A stretch of 64,000 nucleotides of DNA from positions 1 to 64,000 of the forward strand of contig CAMCIC010000011.1 of NCBI GenBank assembly GCA_945874895.1, in the 5' to 3' direction. The translations under genes were made by a program, and so were the position numbers. Within the stretch, counting starts at the first letter, position 1, and each line of letters starts with the position of its first letter. Below the pieces are notes generated by a model, which searched no databases, was not told where the DNA came from, and saw nothing but the letters and a program-made list of their open reading frames with translations. Source of the stretch: Akkermansia muciniphila (GTDB lineage: Bacteria; Verrucomicrobiota; Verrucomicrobiia; Verrucomicrobiales; Akkermansiaceae). Below are positions 5,037-47,613 of this stretch, in pieces.

Positions 5037-5219
5037 TCAGCACCGAGCCCCAAGAGTCCCAACAACGGGTGCATTCTGCAAACGCCTGAGAACCTCAGCA
5101 GCTAACTCTTTTCGCTCGATTTGTTGTTTTTTGCTCACCCGAGAGAGCAATTTACTACAATCTTGCTGGTTGTGGCGGAATGCCTGTAAGGATTCGATCA
5201 GCCCATCGAATTTTCTGCC
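5037..5219 (-). pseudogene. Possible 3' remnant of a gene cut by the hairpin repeat
   Basis: On the minus strand this stretch reads as a helical, charged tail (containing GLIESLQAFRHNQQDCSKLL and KKQQIERKELAAEVLRRLQN) ending at a stop at 5037. Upstream of 5220 the frame runs straight into hairpin repeat copy 1, which codes only low-meaning residues. It looks like the C-terminal ~60 residues of a gene whose front was replaced by the repeat. I do not recognise the family. It could also be a chance open frame. Confidence 0.3.
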
Positions 5220-5387
5220 TTCGGTCCCAAAGGGACCATTTAGACAAGCCCACGGAGAAGCCGTGGGTAGCGCGTTTTTCCAAAAATTTTGCGTCCCAAC
5301 GGGACGCTTCATCAGGGACCATGCGAAGACCGTGCGACACGACGCAAGGGCAAGTCGTCCTGTGCCTCAAATCATGTCATGTTTTCA
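5220..5387. repeat. Hairpin-rich dispersed repeat, copy 1 (shortened)
   Basis: Bases 5220-5345 match 7364-7489 in direct orientation at 123 of 126 positions. The unit contains successive perfect hairpins: GGTCCC/GGGACC, CCCACGG/CCGTGGG and GCGTCCC/GGGACGC. Compared with copy 2 it lacks about 110 bases of further hairpins. The two copies then become similar again up to the string CATGTTTTCA. It is non-coding, with no transposase nearby. It resembles REP/BIME-like or small non-autonomous elements. Confidence 0.85.
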
Positions 5388-5406
5388 GACAGACAAATGA
5401 TTTTCT
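5388..5406. repeat. 19-bp direct repeat, left copy
   Basis: GACAGACAAATGATTTTCT is found here and again, identically, at 7331-7349. The two copies bracket 1,924 bases that hold the AbiE-like operon and its control region. They could be a target-site duplication, recombination (att-like) sites, or the inner ends of a larger repeated unit. Confidence 0.8.
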
Positions 5407-5572
5407 TCCGCCTAAAGGCAAAAATCCCCCAGTGGCAAATCGCTCCGCGCATCCGCCTGACTTCATCGAAGTCATCGATCACCAACAATGACCACTGCGA
5501 CCCCGCGCATACAAATCCATCCCCATGGTACTTGCGACTACGCTTACGGTGCAACGTTCCCAGGACGCTGTC
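5407..5572. other. Non-coding stretch with small inverted repeats
   Basis: Between the left 19-bp repeat and the end of the toxin gene. It holds short inverted repeats such as GACTTC/GAAGTC (about 5460-5474) and AGGAC/GTCCT (about 5561-5573). The second one overlaps the stop codon region of the toxin gene. No coding frame is convincing. Confidence 0.4.
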
Positions 5573-6634
5573 CTAGGCTGAGGAATCTCGGCCTTTCAGG
5601 CTTGGAAGGAAGCTCTTGGCGTTAAAGATATCCTCGAACATCGTGGCGGCAGCGATCATTTCCTCAAAGCTGGGGGTATTGCCGAAGAACATGGGACCAA
5701 GCATGTCCGTGTAGTCGGCTTTCCAAGCGGAGAGGTGGGTCGGTGGAGGAGTGAGACGAAAGGTGCCGGGCTTGTGGGTGCTGTAATCCACCCAGGAGAA
5801 GCGGAAGAAGAGTTCGCGATGTTCCGCTACACGCTGGAAGAGCGCAGGCTGCGCGAGAGCGGCCTCTCCGATGCCAGCGCGGATGAGGCACCAGAGGTCG
5901 TAGTAGTGCCGAGCCATGCGAAGTTTCCGAGGCTTTTCTGCCGGGCGGAAGGTCTCCTCGTGGAGCAGGCAGGCTTTTTCCCAAAAGGTGCGTTCGGCGG
6001 CGAGAACTCTAACAGGAAAGGCGGGAGCAGGGTCCAGAGCAGGAAAATGTTCCGTCACGTAAGGTAAGATGGTTCTTTCCTCATGCGGCCAATCGTCGGA
6101 ACGGGCTCCGAGCTCGATCTTTACCACAGGGCGGACGTAGCCTGCTGTCCCGGACGCAAAGGCAGATGGGTAATGAAAAAGCAAGCACTGGCCATCTGGC
6201 ATGTCAGGGTCAACTTCGAGCAGCCAACCTTTTTTACCAATCGTTTCCTCTATGCGTGCGCGAAGTGCGGGTTGCAGCTTACCCTGGACCCACTCGCGGC
6301 AGGTAGCGATGAGTGCTTCAAGTCGAGCTTTGCGTTGCTTGTTACTGGGTGCGCGATCCGGTGCTGCCTCTCCCCCAAACCCAAGAGCCTCCTTGTCTAC
6401 GATGATGTCAATGTCTTCGGAGAAACGTTCGATGAGTTTCCACGCTTTAGAAAGTGAAGTGCCGCCTTTGAAGGTCAGGTGTGAACCGATGCCGGGAAGC
6501 GAGAACAGCTCGCGTAGGGTCCAGCACACCCAGAAGTCCTTCTCGACGCTTACGGCTTGTAGCCCCATCACATCATCGACTTGCTGGAAGGCGAGAAGGC
6601 GTCGGGCCTTGGGGATTTGAAGAAAGGCATCCAT
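5573..6634 (-). CDS. abiEii: AbiEii-family nucleotidyltransferase toxin (type IV toxin-antitoxin)
   Basis: A 353-residue protein of the AbiEii/AbiGii family, cytoplasmic nucleotidyltransferases that act as toxins, shown for some relatives to modify tRNA ends. The core NTase motif is near residues 56-80: FKGGTSLSKAW (GG-T/S) followed by RFSEDIDIIVD, with the D-x-D metal ligands. Later family motifs are VVKIELGARSD, AAERTFWEKACLLHEE and RHYYDLW. The start lies 3 bases after the stop of the antitoxin gene, so the pair is a tight operon. The last residues (KGRDSSA) are coded within repeat-like inverted sequence at 5573-5600, so the native C-terminus may have been exchanged. Length is normal and key residues are intact. 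Confidence 0.9.
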   Translation of the reverse strand: MDAFLQIPKARRLLAFQQVDDVMGLQAVSVEKDFWVCWTLRELFSLPGIGSHLTFKGGTSLSKAWKLIERFSEDIDIIVDKEALGFGGEAAPDRAPSNKQRKARLEALIATCREWVQGKLQPALRARIEETIGKKGWLLEVDPDMPDGQCLLFHYPSAFASGTAGYVRPVVKIELGARSDDWPHEERTILPYVTEHFPALDPAPAFPVRVLAAERTFWEKACLLHEETFRPAEKPRKLRMARHYYDLWCLIRAGIGEAALAQPALFQRVAEHRELFFRFSWVDYSTHKPGTFRLTPPPTHLSAWKADYTDMLGPMFFGNTPSFEEMIAAATMFEDIFNAKSFLPSLKGRDSSA

Positions 6635-6637
6635 GGT

Positions 6638-7246
6638 CTAAGAGGATGGTTCCGTGAGGCGCCGGAGGATTTCCGCGATCCAAGCGGGTGCATGCATGAG
6701 GTCTTTGAGGATCGCAGAGCGGTCGGAATTTGCGAGATTTCTGCGCAAGATGGCGAGAACCTGATCGTCGACTTGATCTTGGCCAAGATGGCGGAGTGCT
6801 TGAATGATCGTGCCGCTGATGCGCCCGGCGGTGGCCATGTTGCGTGGCGTGGTGTGCTGAAGGATGATTTCCCGTTTGCCCATGCTGACCTTACGGGCGG
6901 GACCGTCGGTGAGGAAGACAATGCGAGAAGGGACCTGGTCTGAGAGTCCCAGCAGGTTGGCGGCGTATGCCCCGGAGGGCTGGATCCGTATGGCATCACG
7001 TACGACAAGCGCGCGCGCGATGGCGTCCGCAGAGGGTGCCACCGTGCCAAGAACTGCGTCATGGACCGGGTAATCGTAGAGGCCAAAGGTCAGACGTCGA
7101 ATGGTTCCGGCTGCAGTCAATCGACTGAGTGCATTACCCACGGCGGAGCGCGATCCAAGGTCTAGGAAGTGAGTTGGTGTAAACACCCAACCCCTCCCTT
7201 TCCCGTAGATCCTGGAAACTATTGTATTTTCAATCGATTTTGCCAT
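6638..7246 (-). CDS. abiEi: AbiEi-like (DUF6088-type) antitoxin and repressor
   Basis: A 202-residue protein encoded immediately before the toxin gene. The N-terminal ~75 residues look like a winged helix-turn-helix (GWVFTPTHFLDLGSRSAVGN, ALSRLTAAGTIRRLTFGLYDYP). The remainder fits the DUF6088/AbiEi antitoxin domain (DAIRIQPSGAYAANLLGL, VFLTDGPARKV). Members of this group neutralise the AbiEii toxin without direct binding (type IV) and repress their own operon through inverted repeats. A perfect inverted repeat over the -10 region at 7264-7291 fits this. The ATG at 7246 gives a leader of roughly 18-20 bases. Confidence 0.88.
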   Translation of the reverse strand: MAKSIENTIVSRIYGKGRGWVFTPTHFLDLGSRSAVGNALSRLTAAGTIRRLTFGLYDYPVHDAVLGTVAPSADAIARALVVRDAIRIQPSGAYAANLLGLSDQVPSRIVFLTDGPARKVSMGKREIILQHTTPRNMATAGRISGTIIQALRHLGQDQVDDQVLAILRRNLANSDRSAILKDLMHAPAWIAEILRRLTEPSS

Positions 7247-7263
7247 TTAGATCAAAAATTTTC

Positions 7264-7291
7264 GTGACAAATCATACCCATTATTTGTCAC
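7264..7291 (-). promoter_or_regulatory. Operator and -10 region of the abiE operon
   Basis: A perfect inverted repeat, GTGACAAAT (7264-7272) and ATTTGTCAC (7283-7291), with a 10-base spacer. On the minus strand a consensus-like -10 TATGAT (7276-7271) overlaps the spacer and one arm, so a bound repressor would block RNA polymerase. The start codon follows at 7246. This matches the known AbiEi mode of autoregulation. Confidence 0.7.
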
Positions 7292-7330
7292 AAAAGAAAG
7301 AAGAATTTGTGGATTTTTTCATGACCTGGG

Positions 7331-7349
7331 GACAGACAAATGATTTTCT
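7331..7349. repeat. 19-bp direct repeat, right copy
   Basis: Identical to 5388-5406 and in the same orientation. It lies 14 bases before hairpin repeat copy 2 and just outside the abiE operator. Confidence 0.8.
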
Positions 7350-7363
7350 AACCTCTTTTTCTC

Positions 7364-7642
7364 TTCGGTCCGAAAGGGACCATTTAGACAAGCCCACGGA
7401 GAAGCCGTGGGTAGCGCGTTTTTCCAAAAATTTTGCGTCCCAAGGGGACGCTTCATCAGGGACCATGCGAAGACCATGCGACACGACGCGAGCGTTTCGA
7501 TGAGGCGTCCCGTTGGGACGCAGCGCCTCTTTTGGTTGATCTAGCCCACGGATGCACCGTGGGCTGATATGAATCGTCCTGTTAGGACGGGAAGACACAC
7601 AAGGGACAAGACGACCGTGACTCACATCATGCCATGTTTTCA
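7364..7642. repeat. Hairpin-rich dispersed repeat, copy 2 (full length)
   Basis: The first 126 bases match copy 1 at 5220-5345. This copy continues with further perfect hairpins: GCGTCCC/GGGACGC nested near GAGGCG, AGCCCACGG/CCGTGGGCT (7552-7574 region) and CGTCC/GGACG. It ends in the same CATGTTTTCA segment as copy 1. Six or more stem-loops in under 300 bases give a non-coding, RNA-like look. Long open frames drawn through it have no protein signature. Confidence 0.85.
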
Positions 7643-7716
7643 CATGCAAGTGCCCCTCCTTCCAGGCTTTGGGCTGTGGTGGAGAAGAAGGATTACGTGC
7701 TGCCGACCTTCCCAAG

Positions 7717-9657
7717 TTATGCACCGGTGGCAGCGATGGCTTCGAGTTCTTCCCAGCGTTGATAGAGTGCGGCGGCGGTAGCACGGGCTTTTTCTAACGA
7801 TTCCATAACGCTGGCGGCTTCGTGAAAACGGGTGCTGTGGAATTCGGGGTCGTTGAGGAGGGCTTCGATTTCGGCGACTTTTTCCTCGGCGGCGAGAATC
7901 GCGTCCTCCATGCCATCGAGTTCCTTGCGCTCGGCGAGAGTGATTTTGCGCGGTTTGACTTCGATGCTGGTCTGAGCTTTTTTCTTGGCCACCTCGCGCG
8001 CAAGGTTTTGCGCATACAGCTTGTCGCGCTGTTCGCGGGCTTTGCGTTTTTCGAGGTAGTAGGAGTAATTGCCCGGTTGCACCACGACGTTGCCGTCTTC
8101 AAAGGCGACGATCTGATCGCAGATGCGGTCGAGGAAATAGCGGTCGTGCGAGACCACTAGGACTGCTCCATCAAAGTCAGCGATGGCTTCTTCCAGCATG
8201 CGCAGGCTGGGCAGGTCGAGGTCGTTGGTGGGCTCGTCCAGCACTAACAGATTGCCGCCGTTTTTCAGGACCTTCGCCAGCATGAGGCGGGCTTTTTCGC
8301 CGCCAGAAAGCAAATCCACGCGTTCATTGATGCGTTTGTCATCGAAGAGGAAACGCCGCAGGTAGGCGCGGGCGCCGAGCGTCTGATCGCCGAACTGGAC
8401 CTTCTCGTTGCCATCGGCCACTTCATCCAAGAGCGAGCCGGTGCCATCGAGCTGCATGCGGGCTTGGTCGATGTAATTGACACGGATTTTTTTTCCGATC
8501 TGCACCGTGCCGGCATCGGGCTCGCGTTTGCCGAGGCAGACTTTGAGGAGAGTCGTTTTGCCCACGCCGTTGCGACCAACGATGCCTGTGCACTGGCCAG
8601 GTCGAATGGAAAGCGTGAGGTCGCGGGCGAGGTAGCGTGGGTTTTGCGCATCGCCGACGATGATGGAAACTTTTTCGAGTTCTACGGCGATGTTGCCGAT
8701 TTCCGGTGCGGGTGGGATGAGCAAATCCATCTCGCGCTCCTCGGGCGGGGCTTCCAGATCGGCCACGGCGTAAAAGGCATCCAGCCGGTGTCGAGACTTC
8801 GTAGTGCGCGCTTTAACGCCCGCGCGCACCCATTGCAGTTCCTCGCGCAGGAAGCGTTGGCGGCGTCGCTCGGTCTGTTCCGCGATCGATTGCCGCACGG
8901 CCTTCGATTCCAGATACGCGGTGTAATTGCCGGGATGCGAGTAGGCCTTACCGTGGTCGATCTCGATGATGCGTGAGGCGATTTCATCGAGGAAATAGCG
9001 GTCGTGCGTCACAAAAATCACTGCTCCCGCGAAGGTCCGCAAGAAGGCCTCCAGCCAGGAGATGGATTCGGCATCGAGGTGGTTGGTCGGTTCGTCCAAC
9101 AGCAACAGATCCGGTTGTGAGGCGAGCGCGCGGCATAGTGAGACGCGGCGTTTTTCTCCACCGGAGAGTGGGCCGACGAGGGCATCGAGGGGTGGGCAAT
9201 CGAGTGAGGTGGCGAGCGATTTGATGCGAGCGTGGAGGTTCCAGCCATCGGCATGTTCGATCACGTGCAACAGATCCGCGAGCTCGTTTTCCGAGCCGTC
9301 GCCCTGTTCGTAGCGTTGAACGGCGGTGATCAGATCCGCGGCGCCTTGTTCGATGCATTCCATCACCGATTGTTGCGGGTCCATCTCGAAGTCTTGTGGC
9401 AGATAGCCGACGCGCAGACCTTTGCGCACGGAAATTTCTCCTGAGTCCGCTTGTTGCTGGCGGGTGAGAATTTTCAGCAGACTGGATTTTCCGCAGCCGT
9501 TGCGTCCCACCAATCCTGCTTTTTCTCCTGCTGCTACGGCGAGGGTCACGCCGTCTAACAGGTTTTGGTAGCCGTAGGACAGGCGGATTTCGTTGGCGGA
9601 GAGCAGAGCAGACACGGCGCGCACGCTAGGTGGCAATGCGCCGATGGGCAATCTCAA
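7717..9657 (-). CDS. ABC-F ATPase (Uup-like)
   Basis: A soluble protein of about 630-646 residues with two ABC ATPase domains and no membrane segments. ABC-F proteins act on ribosomes or nucleic acid. Domain 1 has Walker A GRNGCGKSS, signature LSGGEKRRVSL and Walker B LLLLDEPTNHLD. Domain 2 has GRNGVGKTT, LSGGEKARLML and LLVLDEPTNDLD. A charged linker joins them, and a C-terminal coiled-coil (AEREL-rich, then VAEIEALLNDPEF and onward) fits the Uup-type DNA/RNA-binding tail. The first possible start is TTG at 9657. A GTG at 9615, just before SALLSANEIRLSYG, fits family length better. An antibiotic-resistance ABC-F is possible but the C-terminal domain favours Uup. Confidence 0.9.
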   Translation of the reverse strand: MRLPIGALPPSVRAVSALLSANEIRLSYGYQNLLDGVTLAVAAGEKAGLVGRNGCGKSSLLKILTRQQQADSGEISVRKGLRVGYLPQDFEMDPQQSVMECIEQGAADLITAVQRYEQGDGSENELADLLHVIEHADGWNLHARIKSLATSLDCPPLDALVGPLSGGEKRRVSLCRALASQPDLLLLDEPTNHLDAESISWLEAFLRTFAGAVIFVTHDRYFLDEIASRIIEIDHGKAYSHPGNYTAYLESKAVRQSIAEQTERRRQRFLREELQWVRAGVKARTTKSRHRLDAFYAVADLEAPPEEREMDLLIPPAPEIGNIAVELEKVSIIVGDAQNPRYLARDLTLSIRPGQCTGIVGRNGVGKTTLLKVCLGKREPDAGTVQIGKKIRVNYIDQARMQLDGTGSLLDEVADGNEKVQFGDQTLGARAYLRRFLFDDKRINERVDLLSGGEKARLMLAKVLKNGGNLLVLDEPTNDLDLPSLRMLEEAIADFDGAVLVVSHDRYFLDRICDQIVAFEDGNVVVQPGNYSYYLEKRKAREQRDKLYAQNLAREVAKKKAQTSIEVKPRKITLAERKELDGMEDAILAAEEKVAEIEALLNDPEFHSTRFHEAASVMESLEKARATAAALYQRWEELEAIAATGA

Positions 9658-17112: not shown

Positions 17113-18228
17113 TCAAACGTTGAATCGGAACTCGATCACATCGCCATCCTTGACCGTGTAGTCTTTGCCCTCGATGCGCAGCTTGCCCACATCGCGTGCG
17201 GCGGCTTTTGATCCGCTGGCCACGAGGTCATCGAAATGCACGACCTCTGCGGCGATGAAACCGCGCTCGAAGTCGGTATGAATCACGCCGGCTGCGGCTG
17301 GAGCTTTATCCCCCTCATGAATCGTCCAGGCGCGCGTTTCCTGAACGCCGGTGGTCAGATAGGTGCGCAAGCCTAACAGGTGATAGACGCCACGGATCAG
17401 ATTGGATACGCCACTGTCGTTCACACCCATGTCGGCCAAGAAAGCCTCCGCTTCCTCGGGATCAAGATCGATCAATTCTTCCTCGATGCGGGCAGAGATC
17501 ACCACGCATTCGGCGCCGAAGTTTTCTGCGGCGAATTTCCTTACCTTCGCTACCAGCGGTTGAGAATCCGGATCGGCGCTGGCGCTGGCGAGTTCATCCT
17601 CGGAAACATTGCATGCATAGATGGTGCGCTTCATCGAGAGCAGGAAAAAGTCCTTCACGTAGGGCAGATCCTCTGTGGCGAAGCTTAGGGTGATGGCGGG
17701 CTTGCCGTCGTAGAGATGGGGCAGCAGGACATCGATGAGCTCCACTTCTTTTTTCGCTTCCTTGTCACCGGACTTGGCTTTTTTCTCACGGGACTGGCGG
17801 CGTTTTTCCATCGCGGTGATGTCGGCCAGGATCAGCTCGGAGTTAATGATCTCAATGTCGCGCACCGGATCCACGCTGCCCAGCTCGTGAATGATATCAT
17901 CGTTTTCAAAACAACGCACTACCTGCACGATGGCATCCGTCTCGCGGATGTTGGCGAGGAACTGGTTGCCTAGACCTGCGCCTTCGGAAGCACCTTTGAC
18001 CAGACCGGCAATATCGACAAATTCGATCGCCGCGGGCACCAGTTTTTTCGAACCGGAAAGTTGGGACAGAATGGCGAGCCGAGGATCTGGCACAGTAACG
18101 ACTCCGACGTTCGGGTCGATGGTGCAGAAGGGATAATTGGCGGCCTCCGCTTTGCGCGAGCGGGTGACGGCATTGAAGAGGGTGGATTTCCCGACGTTGG
18201 GCAGACCTACGATTCCAGCTTTGAGCAT
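17113..18228 (-). CDS. ychF: YchF/OLA1-family P-loop ATPase
   Basis: A 371-residue cytosolic protein. It starts [20 protein letters not shown]. The open frame extends 38 residues further upstream but without family match. Walker [11 protein letters not shown]3 [20 protein letters not shown], the NSEL-type region in place of canonical G4, and the C-terminal TGS domain ([20 protein letters not shown] to the EFRFNV end) are complete. YchF binds ribosomes and prefers ATP, and is linked to stress responses. It is divergent from the nitric oxide synthase gene with 157 bases between starts. Confidence 0.95.
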
Positions 18229-18352
18229 GACGCGCTGAGATTGCGCAGGTTGTGTGGGTCTGGTAAAGGCAAATTCATTCGTGGGCTTGTGGATGGAATG
18301 CCGAACGCATGCGGCTGGGGTGAGGCTCTCCTCAATCAACAAAAAAATCGCC

Positions 18353-18385
18353 TTGGGGAAAAGAGATGCGCTATAGTGTGGCCGG
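18353..18385 (+). promoter_or_regulatory. Probable nos promoter (leaderless)
   Basis: TATAGT (18372-18377) is a good -10. The ATG at 18386 is 8 bases beyond it, where transcription should begin. A -35 is not clear: TTGGGG at 18353 is too close for normal 17-base spacing. A leaderless mRNA is inferred. Confidence 0.45.
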
Positions 18386-19528
18386 ATGACGCAGATGTTT
18401 CATTATCCTGAAGGAAAAAGCGCGCGGGCGCCGACGGCGAACCTGCTACGTGAGTATCAGGAATTTCTCCAACGTGCCGAGAGCGAGGGCGTCATGCCCG
18501 GGAGCGAGGTGCAGTGCCATGCCACCGAGCCGCCGGCTTTGGATTCGTCGCTTCTCGTCTTCGCCGGTCGCATGGCATGGCGCAATAGCACGCGTTGTGT
18601 GGGTCGTTTTTTCTGGCAGAGCTTGCAAGTCAGGGATTGCCGTGACCTTTGCCATCCAGATGATATTTTTGAAGCATGCTTGGAGCATTTGCGTTTTGCC
18701 ACCAATGGCGGGAAGATTCGCCCTTTGCTCACGGTTTTTGCCGCAGCGAGCGAGGGTTCATCGGAGCCGCGGATTTTGAATCACCAATTGATTCGCTATG
18801 CTGGCTACGATCTCGGCAATGGCCGCATCATCGGAGATCCGCAAAACATTTCGTTCACCAAGCATGCAATTCACTGCGGTTGGAGACCGCCTGCGGACCC
18901 GGGCGCCTTCGACCTGCTGCCTGTGGCCATCAGCATGCCGGAGCAGCCCGTGTGTTGGTATGAAATGCCTCGCAGCGAGGTGTTAGAGGTTTCGCTGCGT
19001 CATCCTCGCTATGCATGGTTTGCGGACTTAGGTTTGAAGTGGCACGCCCTACCGGTGATCACAGATATGTGCTTCGCCGCTGCCGGAGCCAGATACACTT
19101 GCGCTCCTTTCAGCGGGTGGTATATGGGAACCGAAATCGGCGCGCGCAATCTCAGCGATGTAAGCCGTTACAACATGCTTCCTCTCATCGCAAGCCGCAT
19201 GGGCTTGGATACGAGCCGTGCGAATCCGCTGTGGAAAGATCGCGCTTTGATCGAGCTCAACGATGCGGTGATTCACTCGTTCGCACAGGACGGCGTCACC
19301 ATGGTCGATCATCATAGCGCGACAGAACAGTTCATGCGATTCCAAAAACGGGAGAGCCAATGTGGGCGCGCGGTCAAGGGCGACTGGAGTTGGCTGGTGC
19401 CACCGTTATCCGGCTCTACGACGCCGGTTTTTCACAATTCGTTTGATCCCCGCGCAGAGCTGCCCAATTTTTTCTACCAGGATTCCGCTTGGCAGGTGGA
19501 AGACGAGGGGAATCCTGAAATTTCCTGA
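18386..19528 (+). CDS. nos: Nitric oxide synthase oxygenase (bacterial NOS)
   Basis: A 380-residue heme enzyme of the NOS oxygenase family that oxidises L-arginine to citrulline and NO. The heme-ligand motif is MAWRNSTRCVGR with Cys71 and Trp66. The substrate site PFSGWYMGTEIGARNL contains Trp245 and Glu250, which hold the arginine guanidinium. Conserved DHHSATEQFMRF, GDWSWLVPPLSGSTTPVFH (pterin side) and NFFYQ follow. As in other bacterial NOS there is no N-terminal zinc hook and no attached reductase, so electrons must come from other flavoproteins. No reductase or biopterin gene is adjacent. The family is best known from Firmicutes, Deinococcus and actinomycetes. Confidence 0.93.
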   Translation: MTQMFHYPEGKSARAPTANLLREYQEFLQRAESEGVMPGSEVQCHATEPPALDSSLLVFAGRMAWRNSTRCVGRFFWQSLQVRDCRDLCHPDDIFEACLEHLRFATNGGKIRPLLTVFAAASEGSSEPRILNHQLIRYAGYDLGNGRIIGDPQNISFTKHAIHCGWRPPADPGAFDLLPVAISMPEQPVCWYEMPRSEVLEVSLRHPRYAWFADLGLKWHALPVITDMCFAAAGARYTCAPFSGWYMGTEIGARNLSDVSRYNMLPLIASRMGLDTSRANPLWKDRALIELNDAVIHSFAQDGVTMVDHHSATEQFMRFQKRESQCGRAVKGDWSWLVPPLSGSTTPVFHNSFDPRAELPNFFYQDSAWQVEDEGNPEIS

Positions 19529-44456: not shown

Positions 44457-45374
44457 TTACGAACGTAACTTTACCGAAATATCAGCAATCCGTAAACATA
44501 AATCCCCAAAAACAATCCCTGCCGCCGCAGCTGCTTTGGGGAGCAAACTGGTCTCCGTCATGCCGGGAATGGTGTTGGCTTCCAGGACATAGGGGTGGTT
44601 GTTTTGATCCAGCAATACATCCACACGCGAGTAAACCTCGATTCCCAGAGCGTGGTGCGCCTCTACGGCTGCTTTTTGCACGGCCAAAGTGGTGGCTTCG
44701 TCTAGATCCGCTGGGCAGTAGTAGTCGCTTCCATCCCCGCCATTCATCCAGGGATACTTGTTGCTCATGTCATAGAATCCGCTACGCGGCGCGATGTGCA
44801 CGATGGGCAGGGCTTCACCGTCGAGCACGCCCACAGTGAGTTCTTTACCCGCAATGTATTGTTCCACCAGAATGTCATTGCCATATTTGGCCGCGTCTTC
44901 CATGGCGGACATGGCTTCCTCCTCACGCAACACGATGTGCACTCCTACACTCGATCCCTCACGTGGTGGTTTCACCACAAATGGTAGGGGCATGTGAGGG
45001 AGTCTTACACCTTGGCTTACATCGACGATTTCCGCGGCAGGCGTGGGAACGTTTGCGCCGATGAATTTCTCTTTGGCCAGATTTTTGTCGAACGCCACAC
45101 GACTGCTTGCCACTCCAGCTCCCGTGTAAGGGATGCCGCGTTTTTCTAACAGGTCTTGCAAGGTGCCGTCTTCGCCGAAGGTGCCGTGAATCACGTTAAA
45201 ACAAAGCCCCGTTCCTTCTGGTAGCGAAAAATCAGATCCTGTCACATCTACGGCTTCCGCGCGGAAACCCTTGTCCTGCAAGGCTTTGACGACGGCTGCG
45301 CCCGATGCGAGCGAAACCTTGCGCTCCGATCCTGGGCCACCCATTAGTACGGCGATGATAGTATTTTGATCCAT
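44457..45374 (-). CDS. ddl: D-alanine--D-alanine ligase
   Basis: A 305-residue ATP-grasp enzyme that makes the D-Ala-D-Ala end of peptidoglycan precursors. Motifs are VLMGGPGSERKVSLASG, HGTFGEDGTLQDLLE, PFVVKPPREGSSVGVHIV, DILVEQYIAGKELTVGVL and VLEANTIPGMTETSLLPK. The Tyr/Phe specificity region reads YYCPADLD, consistent with D-Ala rather than D-Lac. murB and murC, which precede ddl in many relatives, are not here. A polyphosphate kinase gene lies upstream instead. Confidence 0.95.
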   Translation of the reverse strand: MDQNTIIAVLMGGPGSERKVSLASGAAVVKALQDKGFRAEAVDVTGSDFSLPEGTGLCFNVIHGTFGEDGTLQDLLEKRGIPYTGAGVASSRVAFDKNLAKEKFIGANVPTPAAEIVDVSQGVRLPHMPLPFVVKPPREGSSVGVHIVLREEEAMSAMEDAAKYGNDILVEQYIAGKELTVGVLDGEALPIVHIAPRSGFYDMSNKYPWMNGGDGSDYYCPADLDEATTLAVQKAAVEAHHALGIEVYSRVDVLLDQNNHPYVLEANTIPGMTETSLLPKAAAAAGIVFGDLCLRIADISVKLRS

Positions 45375-45456
45375 GTGTTCCGCGTTTGTTTCGCGGCGCG
45401 AGATTACCGCGTTGGCAGGATGTGAGCGAGGAAAATTTGTCGATGCGGGGCATCGC

Positions 45457-47613
45457 TCATGAGCTCGGCGTGTGCGGTTCGAACGTGAGGGATCGTTCGT
45501 GCTCGCGCGCTTTCGCTAGACGTTTTGCCTCACGGAAAAAATGCAATTGCGCGCGGAAAGGCTTCTCTCCCTTGATGGGCATGACCGGCGAGGAAAGCCC
45601 AGTCGGTAGTATCAAATGCGCGTTGCTATTGTCGTTGAAACAGTTTTTCAAAATGCCGATCAAACGACGCTTCAAGGTGGCGTCCTCGATGGGAATCATG
45701 AGCTCGATGCGGCGATCGAGATTGCGTGACATCCAGTCTGCCGAGGCGATGAACACGGCATTTTGTCCACCCTGATGAAAAGCGAAGATCCGCGCGTGTT
45801 CGAGATAGCGATCGATGATCGATACGACGCGAATGTTCTTCGAATATTTTTTGTCGTTTGGTTTGAGGCAGCAAACGCCGCGAATGTTGAGGGAGATTTC
45901 CACGCCAGCCTGCGATGCTTTGTAAAGCGCTTGTATGATATCGGGATCTTGCAACGAATTCACTTTCGCCATGATCCACGCAGGCTCGCCGAGTTTGGCG
46001 CGATCTGCCTCCGAGGCGATCAGTTCTAACAGACGCGGCTTCATTTGGGTGGGAGCCGGAATCAAATGTCGGAAACGCAGAAGCTTGGAGCGACCGGTGA
46101 GAGCATTGAAAAACAAGGAAGCGTCGTGTCCGTAATCCGGCCTGCAAGTGAGGTAGGAGATATCCGTGTAAAGTTTGGCCGTGGTCTCATTGTAGTTGCC
46201 CGTTCCCAGATGGACATATCGACGCAGGGATCCCTCTTCACGACGCACGACCAGACAGATCTTGGCGTGGGTTTTGAGCCCCTTGACGCCATACACGATG
46301 GTCACTCCGGCATTTTGCAACTCATCCGCACGCATCAGATTGCGAGCTTCGTCGAAGCGGGCTTTGAGCTCTACCAGCACAGTCACCTGCTTGCCGTTTT
46401 GCGCTGCAAGGATCAGTGCGTCAATGATGCGAGATTTTTTTGCCGTTCGATAGAGCACTTGCTTGATCGCCAGCACGTTCGGATCCACAGCCGCCTCTTC
46501 TAATAAACGCAGGACTGGATCGAACGATTGATAGGGATGAAAGAGAAGCAGATCTTTTTGCGATATGGCATCGAACATTGATGCGCCGGGAGCGATATCG
46601 GGTGAGTGCTGGGGTTGCCAGTCTTCATCACGCAGCGCGTGGAATCCGGGGAGAAAGGCAAGATCCATCAGGCTCGCCAGCCCCACAGGACCGCGCGGTA
46701 TGGTGTAAATTTCCTCCTTGCCGGCTCCGGTTGCACTGCGAATGACGGCGATCAACTCGCGCGGACAGGAAATGGGAACCTCCACGCGCACAGTATCGGC
46801 AAAACGCCGTGCCGTCAGCACCTCTTCCATTTCATCAGCCAAGTCATGGGTGTTATCATCATCCACCGCAATGTCGCCGTTACGCGTGATGCGGAATACG
46901 CCTGTGGATGTCACGGTTTCTCCAGGGAACAAGGAAGATGCTTGCAGGGCCACCAGATCTTCTAACAGAATAAATGTGGTGGGACTGTTGGTGAGAGGGA
47001 TTCTTCGCCCTAACGATTCCGGCAGCGGAATGAAGGCGAAGCGTTTCTCATGGGTCTCGGGATTCTGTATGCGGCAGGCGAGTATGGGCGTCAAGGCCGG
47101 CAAGGTCAGCGTGTCCTGACTGGGATCATAGGAGAGCGGAGTCAATACCGGCATGATGGCATGCTCGTAGGTGGCACGCAGGGAGGTTTTTTCGGATTCG
47201 CTCAAACGTGCGGGATCGAGAAAATGGATCTCATGCTTTGCCAACAAAGGCATCAGAACTCCATGAAGAAGATGATATTGATCATCGACAAACTGCAGGA
47301 TTCGCTTGCGTAGGAGTTCAAGCTGCCGTCTCGGAGTATGTCCACTGGCATCAGGGTTTTTGCGGCCCGCTCGCTGGAGCAACATCAGCCCGCCGATGCG
47401 CACTTGGAAAAATTCATCGAGATTCGATGCGGTGATGGCTAGAAATTTCACTCGCTCTAACAGTGGTAGATCCGAACGCTGAGCCTGATGCAGAACGCGT
47501 TGGTTGAACTCGATCCAAGAGAGTTCACGATTGAGGAAGGGCGTGACCATGAGCGCGTATGCTAGAAGCAAATTGCGGCTTTGCCAAGCATCCATGAGTG
47601 AAATTGTCGCCAT
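45457..47613 (-). CDS. ppk: Polyphosphate kinase 1
   Basis: A 718-residue enzyme that makes inorganic polyphosphate from ATP. The family N-terminus MVTPFLNRELSWIEFNQRVL begins at an internal ATG at 47550, which may be the true start. The phosphorylated His lies in GLKTHAKICLVVRREEG, the second His in YVHLGTGNYNETTA, and KQVLYRTAKKSRIIDAL is typical. All four PPK domains are present. It sits 83 bases upstream of ddl and 34 bases downstream of the DUF6288-like gene, all on the minus strand. Confidence 0.95.
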   Translation of the reverse strand: MATISLMDAWQSRNLLLAYALMVTPFLNRELSWIEFNQRVLHQAQRSDLPLLERVKFLAITASNLDEFFQVRIGGLMLLQRAGRKNPDASGHTPRRQLELLRKRILQFVDDQYHLLHGVLMPLLAKHEIHFLDPARLSESEKTSLRATYEHAIMPVLTPLSYDPSQDTLTLPALTPILACRIQNPETHEKRFAFIPLPESLGRRIPLTNSPTTFILLEDLVALQASSLFPGETVTSTGVFRITRNGDIAVDDDNTHDLADEMEEVLTARRFADTVRVEVPISCPRELIAVIRSATGAGKEEIYTIPRGPVGLASLMDLAFLPGFHALRDEDWQPQHSPDIAPGASMFDAISQKDLLLFHPYQSFDPVLRLLEEAAVDPNVLAIKQVLYRTAKKSRIIDALILAAQNGKQVTVLVELKARFDEARNLMRADELQNAGVTIVYGVKGLKTHAKICLVVRREEGSLRRYVHLGTGNYNETTAKLYTDISYLTCRPDYGHDASLFFNALTGRSKLLRFRHLIPAPTQMKPRLLELIASEADRAKLGEPAWIMAKVNSLQDPDIIQALYKASQAGVEISLNIRGVCCLKPNDKKYSKNIRVVSIIDRYLEHARIFAFHQGGQNAVFIASADWMSRNLDRRIELMIPIEDATLKRRLIGILKNCFNDNSNAHLILPTGLSSPVMPIKGEKPFRAQLHFFREAKRLAKAREHERSLTFEPHTPSS

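Follow-up and report, generated by a model that had tools for sequence, protein, structure and literature searches.

Restriction-modification systems provide the precedent for the kind of event considered here. Their insertion with long (and variable) target duplication is attributed to Nobusato et al. (2000) and Furuta et al. (2010), as cited in PMC3031569, and the former work is also cited for long target duplication in PMC1643837; the phenomenon is described for Helicobacter restriction-modification genes and later summarised for all system types (PMC3031569, PMC1643837, PMC2749054). Two further kinds of system bear on the comparison, namely the toxin-antitoxin cassettes of super-integrons, for which PMC2654758 gives a stabilisation model, and the type IV AbiE systems, for which autoregulation by AbiEi is in print (PMC7725324). 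Among titles and the openings of abstracts, with few subscription journals represented, we found no survey of toxin-antitoxin operons with target duplications or border repeats; two of the papers listed name DUF6088. To our knowledge, how small toxin-antitoxin operons that lack a transposase reach new chromosomal sites is an open question.

We analysed a stretch of 64,000 nucleotides from Akkermansia muciniphila, hereafter the window, in which a first-pass annotation had described an AbiE-like toxin-antitoxin operon between identical 19-bp direct repeats, with a copy of a hairpin-rich repeat outside each. The arrangement had been read as a small cassette without transposase or integrase, open to gain or loss by recombination, and as a new kind of carrier for type IV systems. 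The description of the interval between the 19-mers (5407-7330, 1,924 bases) held up: in open-reading-frame and family scans it contains only the AbiEii gene, the DUF6088 gene and an inverted repeat (Table 1). The predicted toxin scores 157.4 bits against PF08843 (cut-off 22.5) and 348 bits against the PADLOC AbiEii model, while the product of the gene just upstream, separated by an intergenic gap of 3 nt, scores 156.8 bits against Pfam DUF6088 and 234 bits against PADLOC AbiEi. No NCBIfam match to the AbiEii protein was obtained at E 0.01, and a PDB sequence search gave no match to either protein. All other open reading frames of at least 80 aa in the insert overlap these two genes. Neither the open-reading-frame list nor the Pfam and PADLOC scans contained a transposase or integrase within the insert, and no inverted pair of at least 12 nt joins its two ends, which sets it apart from composite transposons and insertion sequences. 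The operon has a G+C content of 57.3% against a window mean of 55.1% (SD 1.4), which gives no clear signal, and recent foreign origin was not retained as a reading on grounds of composition.

Table 1. Features of the repeat-bounded operon and its surroundings, in window coordinates.
Feature	Position	Strand	Remarks
Normal 5' end of REP-type element, continuous with left chromosomal side	5190..5218	+	aligns with C21 half copy and C15 copy; right window copy diverges at this point
Outer direct repeat copy 1 (half REP element and flank piece), 169 nt	5219..5387	+	111 nt present in copy 2 are missing
Inner 19-bp direct repeat, left copy	5388..5406	+	abuts end of outer copy 1
AbiEii-type nucleotidyltransferase gene (predicted toxin), 353 aa	5573..6634	-	PF08843 E 7.6e-46; PADLOC AbiEii E 1.3e-104
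DUF6088 gene (PADLOC: AbiEi), putative antitoxin and repressor, 202 aa	6638..7246	-	PF19570 E 6.1e-46; PADLOC AbiEi E 3.2e-70
Inverted-repeat operator-like site	7260..7295	.	just upstream of DUF6088 start
Inner 19-bp direct repeat, right copy	7331..7349	+	13 nt ahead of outer copy 2
Outer direct repeat copy 2 (REP element and flank piece), 280 nt	7363..7642	+	from repeat comparison
Native flank past ABC-F gene 3' end, common to G009	7629..7716	+	first 14 nt (7629-7642) within outer copy 2
ABC-F type ATPase gene, conserved right neighbour (named by eye)	7717..9657	-	orthologues 94% (G003) and 92% (G009) identical

The inverted repeat ahead of the DUF6088 gene is not peculiar to the window. Of 101 family loci, 86 have a palindrome scoring at least 8 within the 130 nt that precede the DUF6088 match, versus 4 of 101 shuffled controls, so that it is a standing feature of DUF6088/AbiEii operons; the copy in the window is most simply a candidate operator of its operon. 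Among the best ones listed, these upstream inverted repeats are mostly about 50 bp distant, and their sequence varies between loci. The locus thus resembles type IV AbiE systems in having an AbiEii nucleotidyltransferase, an upstream gene for an antitoxin/repressor and an inverted repeat at the expected place of an operator, and differs from them in that its antitoxin is DUF6088 by Pfam and its activity is predicted from sequence. With a predicted toxin, an upstream antitoxin gene and a candidate operator all present, we assign the operon to the AbiE type of toxin-antitoxin systems, the roles in toxicity, neutralisation, repression and phage defence being putative.

The inner direct repeat, GACAGACAAATGATTTTCT, is present as reported, in two identical copies on the + strand. 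Allowing up to three mismatches, the window contains these two matches, a number never reached in 100 shuffles (mean 0.01), and with up to two mismatches they are also the only copies in the genome (2.92 Mb, 26 contigs). In this whole-genome search, which the first-pass annotation had proposed, no REP copy other than those at the operon was accompanied by the 19-mer, and it flanks no other cargo anywhere in the genome. When a 14-mer core was searched with one mismatch allowed, one additional match appeared in the same genome, at C5. A 15-mer core was absent from all 22 other relatives searched, and the full 19-mer had no match in the genome_contigs records, a set that may omit records very near the window's own. 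Given two genome copies, a core absent from 22 relatives and no genome_contigs match, we rejected the idea that the 19-mer is a dispersed element.

The 19-mers are themselves enclosed by a longer direct repeat composed of two parts. Its hairpin-rich part pairs 5212-5348 with 7356-7492 (137 nt, 95% alike), and its flank piece pairs 5362-5387 with 7617-7642 (26 nt, 88% alike); a 47-nt alignment of the flank piece that overlaps the REP element is 83% alike (E 3e-7). Both hairpin-rich copies that had been noted are therefore present, but they are of unequal length (169 versus 280 nt), as the left one lacks 111 nt. The hairpin-rich element gives 22 hits on 7 contigs of the genome, including opposite-strand hits of its palindromes, and several copies surround a Y1_Tnp gene (IS200-like, RAYT-like) at C21:46827-47168; palindromic copies scattered over the genome, some of them close to a Y1 transposase gene, identify the first part of the outer repeat as a REP-type element. 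RAYT-type Y1 transposase genes move REPs. The interspersed palindromic repeats, several of them around the Y1_Tnp gene, resemble REP/RAYT systems, from which the present arrangement differs in that the repeats bound a toxin-antitoxin operon and the transposase lies outside the insert. The same genome holds a second nucleotidyltransferase gene pair (L066:4513-6659, that is G000:C21, about 44512-46658), made up of an AbiEii/DUF6036-like gene (PF08843 25.8 bits against a cut-off of 22.5; DUF6036 below cut-off) and a gene without a Pfam match. It sits between a full and a half REP copy in direct orientation, has no 19-mer, and is accompanied by a PIN-domain gene beyond the half copy; the REP element thus flanks toxin-antitoxin-like cargo at two places in the genome.

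The two outer copies can be related to their respective surroundings. The left copy is preceded by the normal REP 5' end, as in the C21 and C15 copies, and the right copy is not. After the right copy comes the flank CATGTTTTCACAT.CAAGTGCC, which is also present in the relative G009 beside the same ABC-F gene, with no REP element there. By blastn, window 7629-10006 matches L064 (G009) 17134-19501 at 85%; the match begins at 7629, so that 14 nt of the repeat, out of a flank piece of 26-37 nt, are known native sequence, and by eye the last 14 nt of the left outer copy are identical to the G009 sequence. Each outer copy is hence continuous with its own side, over 14 nt only on the right and by reference to within-genome copies only on the left, as expected if an insert spanning 5388-7362 had duplicated its target. 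The copies differ, by the 111-nt deletion and by flank pieces that are 83% alike, so that either the event is old or the copies arose separately and were then homogenised.

Comparison within the genus (10 genomes including the window's own, with loci compared from eight of the nine others, all but G001) yielded no empty site for this locus, and none with one joined 19-mer between the hairpin repeats, the configuration that the first-pass annotation had proposed to look for. In G009 the interval of the window's operon carries about 9 kb of other cargo (L064:8174-17133), by eye encoding TerC-, TerD- and von Willebrand-like proteins, and different cargo at the same place marks the interval as a variable spot. 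The two flanks are on different contigs in G003, where 768 nt are available beyond the ABC-F gene, and the stretches retrieved beyond this gene from G002 and G004-G008 had no match to window 5211-7642. Elsewhere in the genus, the DUF6088 protein matches a single protein, 47% identical, which is encoded on another contig of G003.

Border repeats recur in the family at large. Our survey comprised 101 loci, most of them from MAGs: the best 80 of 190 from genome_contigs, 20 chosen by hand, and the window. In the main version, the flanks of the operon (at most 800 nt per side) were compared by blastn at 40 bits or more and three duplicates were dropped; a border direct repeat was found in 16 of 87 distinct testable operons versus 37 of 1580 control pairs, which were equally spaced window pairs placed at least 1,700 nt away in the 79 loci with room for them. 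The other 71 operons had no border repeat at this cut-off. A version based on a longest exact repeat of at least 15 nt gave 15/91 operons versus 8/348 controls, and one at 40 bits or more gave 16/90 versus 16/492, with control hits from 7 loci. Among the 16 are the window itself as index case, a locus with a broken toxin and a third repeat copy (L163) and two weak cases (L175 and L231; 82-83%, 44-47 nt). Without these four the count is 12 of 85, as the window and L163 also leave the denominator; this gives a binomial P of 7e-7 and a Fisher P of 3e-6, both optimistic because control pairs of one locus are not independent.

The repeats of the 12 firm cases measure 28-446 nt at 82-100% identity, and by eye none is the 19-mer of the window. 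In ten cases the locus contains no copies of the repeat besides these two; additional ones occur in L198 and L227, and the downstream copy in L198 ends at the contig end. L166 and L207 share the same repeat, and the remaining ones look different by eye. This shared repeat of about 120 nt, on both sides of the operon in two delta-proteobacterial records (L166:4773-4891 and 6715-6833; L207:4055-4177 and 6296-6418), may represent a genuine attachment site or the border of a cassette; as judged by eye, a HigB-like gene lies close to the operon in L166. At L180 a tRNA-Leu-like sequence contains the upstream copy from its anticodon loop onwards, and its 3' part recurs, with a terminator, as the downstream copy. 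This reading was made by eye, as a tRNA finder run on 15 loci reported no gene; the 5' end lies at the contig end. At L209 the upstream copy corresponds to the final part of an open frame of 230 codons (nuoN-like by eye), which a downstream fragment of 140 nt resembles at 82%.

Thirty HigB loci, searched with wider windows and without being turned to the strand of the gene, yielded two border repeats at 40 bits or more (L258 and L280; L266 reached 34 bits), which is no different from the AbiE control rate (P 0.16), and HigB was dropped as a second family with general border repeats. The two repeats are 164 nt at 98% (L258:799-962 and 2111-2274) and 82 nt at 95% (L280:1048-1129 and 1870-1951). 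None of 21 core-gene loci had a border repeat. Taken as a whole, the survey suggests that entry with border repeats is frequent among DUF6088/AbiEii operons, as it is for restriction-modification genes.

A clean case of empty and filled sites for a related operon is provided by another genus. In G376, which belongs to the same family as G317 (Opitutaceae), an operon whose DUF6088 protein is 53% identical lies between pnp and surE (genes named by eye), with a copy of the pnp terminator region on either side (44 nt, 95%, spacing 1,934). A pnp query matched 23 of 29 genomes searched, and 11 loci from 10 genomes were compared, the eleventh, L148, being a pnp fragment of G414. Six of the ten genomes (G421, G415, G417, G420, G419 and G424) are empty at this site, with pnp, one terminator and surE on one contig and no operon; G418 and G414 carry another insert there, and surE was not found in G413. 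Set against the empty site of G424, each terminator copy in G376 keeps the native flank of its own side, so that about 47 nt are duplicated (by eye). In G414 a HigB-HigA-like pair, again recognised by eye, is enclosed by two terminator copies, and G418 is arranged likewise over two contigs. G376, G414 and G418 have about 150 nt in common after the left terminator, so that all or some of the cargo has been exchanged at one site. The loci that show this interval empty, with the AbiE-like operon or with the HigBA-like pair include L111:6160-8160, L149:2399-4040, L125, L127 and L132.

We consider that the operon of the window entered as a small insert without its own recombinase, by an event that duplicated its target, the REP element together with a short adjacent piece of flank, and we give this reading a probability of roughly 0.55. 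In its favour are the side-continuity of the outer copies, the flank piece that they share, the pnp-surE case, the excess in the survey and the border copies of L180 and L209. Against it stand the lack of an empty site in the genus genomes compared, the differences between the outer copies, a 19-mer that one event does not explain, and the 71 of 87 family operons without a border repeat at the cut-off used. The native part of the duplicated flank is also short (14 nt), and the left half-REP stops at the same point as the half-REP at C21, as would fit an independent REP insertion. The latter would belong to a different history, in which two REPs were inserted independently beside a resident operon by way of the RAYT-like Y1 transposase of C21, and the flank piece and 19-mer arose by conversion or chance. 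Such a history would draw on the dispersal of REP copies with a Y1_Tnp gene among them and on a left outer copy with the 5' end and half-length of another REP copy. It is nevertheless unlikely in our judgement, as the flank piece of the left copy matches that of the right one, down to a last 14 nt that are G009 native sequence, and a flank piece shared to this extent is not expected from two independent REP insertions; nor is the 19-mer found on any other REP copy.

The 19-mers themselves invite two other explanations. Being identical, unique in the genome and tight around the operon, they could be the recombination sites of a small excisable cassette, recombining without RecA or with the help of an enzyme provided in trans, much as the first-pass annotation had proposed. 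We think this improbable: there is no third copy in the genome and no other cargo between such copies, the core is missing from the 22 relatives and the full sequence from genome_contigs, a joined 19-mer was not seen, the repeats of the twelve firm family cases look unlike it, and a bigger REP-plus-flank duplication lies outside it. Moreover, 19 bp is short for homologous recombination. The proposal of a reused recombination site is not supported, and excision or recombination at the 19-mer is hypothetical.

The 19-mer also contains the decamer GACAAATNAT, as do both half-sites of the putative operator, and might therefore be an additional binding site for the DUF6088 repressor. Its four occurrences in the 64 kb are the two operator half-sites and the two 19-mers, and shuffles gave a mean of 0.66 and never four; it was, however, picked after the match had been seen, and two of the four hits are one repeat. 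Among 52 family loci whose operator is clear, 8-mers from the operator arms recur within 200 nt upstream in 4/52 and downstream in 1/52, versus 2/44 and 3/47 in controls, and in the window itself no arm recurs at this word length. We discarded the idea of a general extra half-site, since these loci hold no excess, treat the decamer match as a lead, and regard a binding-site role for the 19-mer as very doubtful.

The 19-mer is probably not the main boundary of the insert, and the longer outer repeat is probably the one that matters. The 19-mer is the least explained part of the locus, and a single event does not account for it; under target duplication of the REP element and flank it would be an older or secondary junction, perhaps left by a previous, smaller duplication that the insert brought along. 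The DUF6088 and AbiEii operon would have arrived, without a recombinase of its own, in an intergenic spot downstream of the ABC-F gene. The likeliest route, we infer, would be single-crossover integration of circular or transferred DNA carrying the operon beside a copy of the target, and an alternative would be a one-ended or illegitimate event in which the target is copied, a mode that has been put forward for restriction-modification genes. Inserts bounded by repeats would easily be lost by recombination, and an addictive toxin-antitoxin pair would have the best chance of surviving in such a position.

Compared with restriction-modification insertions, as portrayed in the cited accounts, the likeness lies in a small addictive unit between direct repeats of variable length that duplicate the target, and in an empty site with a single copy, here at pnp-surE. 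The differences are that the cargo is an AbiE-type operon, that the targets include REP elements, a terminator and the 3' ends of genes or a tRNA, and that the window has a second, 19-bp pair nested inside. Toxin-antitoxin cassettes of super-integrons share with the locus a toxin-antitoxin unit between repeats and stabilisation by addiction; near the window's operon no integrase or cassette array was recognised (attC by eye). The layout exists and recurs elsewhere, but it matches the insertion with long and variable target duplication already in print for restriction-modification systems, so that the operon does not represent the new kind of carrier that had been suggested. Support for the cassette reading is partial. 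What stands is a compact, repeat-bounded insert without a transposase, backed by the family-wide excess and by the empty and filled pnp-surE sites; gain and loss at the window's own locus did not find the same support, no empty site with a joined 19-mer having turned up among the other genomes of the genus.

Beyond this locus, we tentatively propose, at somewhat less than even odds, that AbiE-type operons spread across phyla as transposase-less cassettes by long target duplication, sharing with restriction-modification systems an unsolved mode of mobility of which addiction would be the common denominator. The proposed connection is that DNA lying between direct repeats soon disappears by deletion if cells survive without it, and addiction may in this way slow the loss of such inserts. 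It predicts that the catalytic activity of the toxin shields repeat-bounded DNA from deletion. With about one in six operons of the family bearing a border duplication, and with the pnp-surE sites at hand, the question of how these operons spread becomes testable at concrete junctions, and the extension of long target duplication to AbiE-type operons across phyla is the part that we believe to be worth following.
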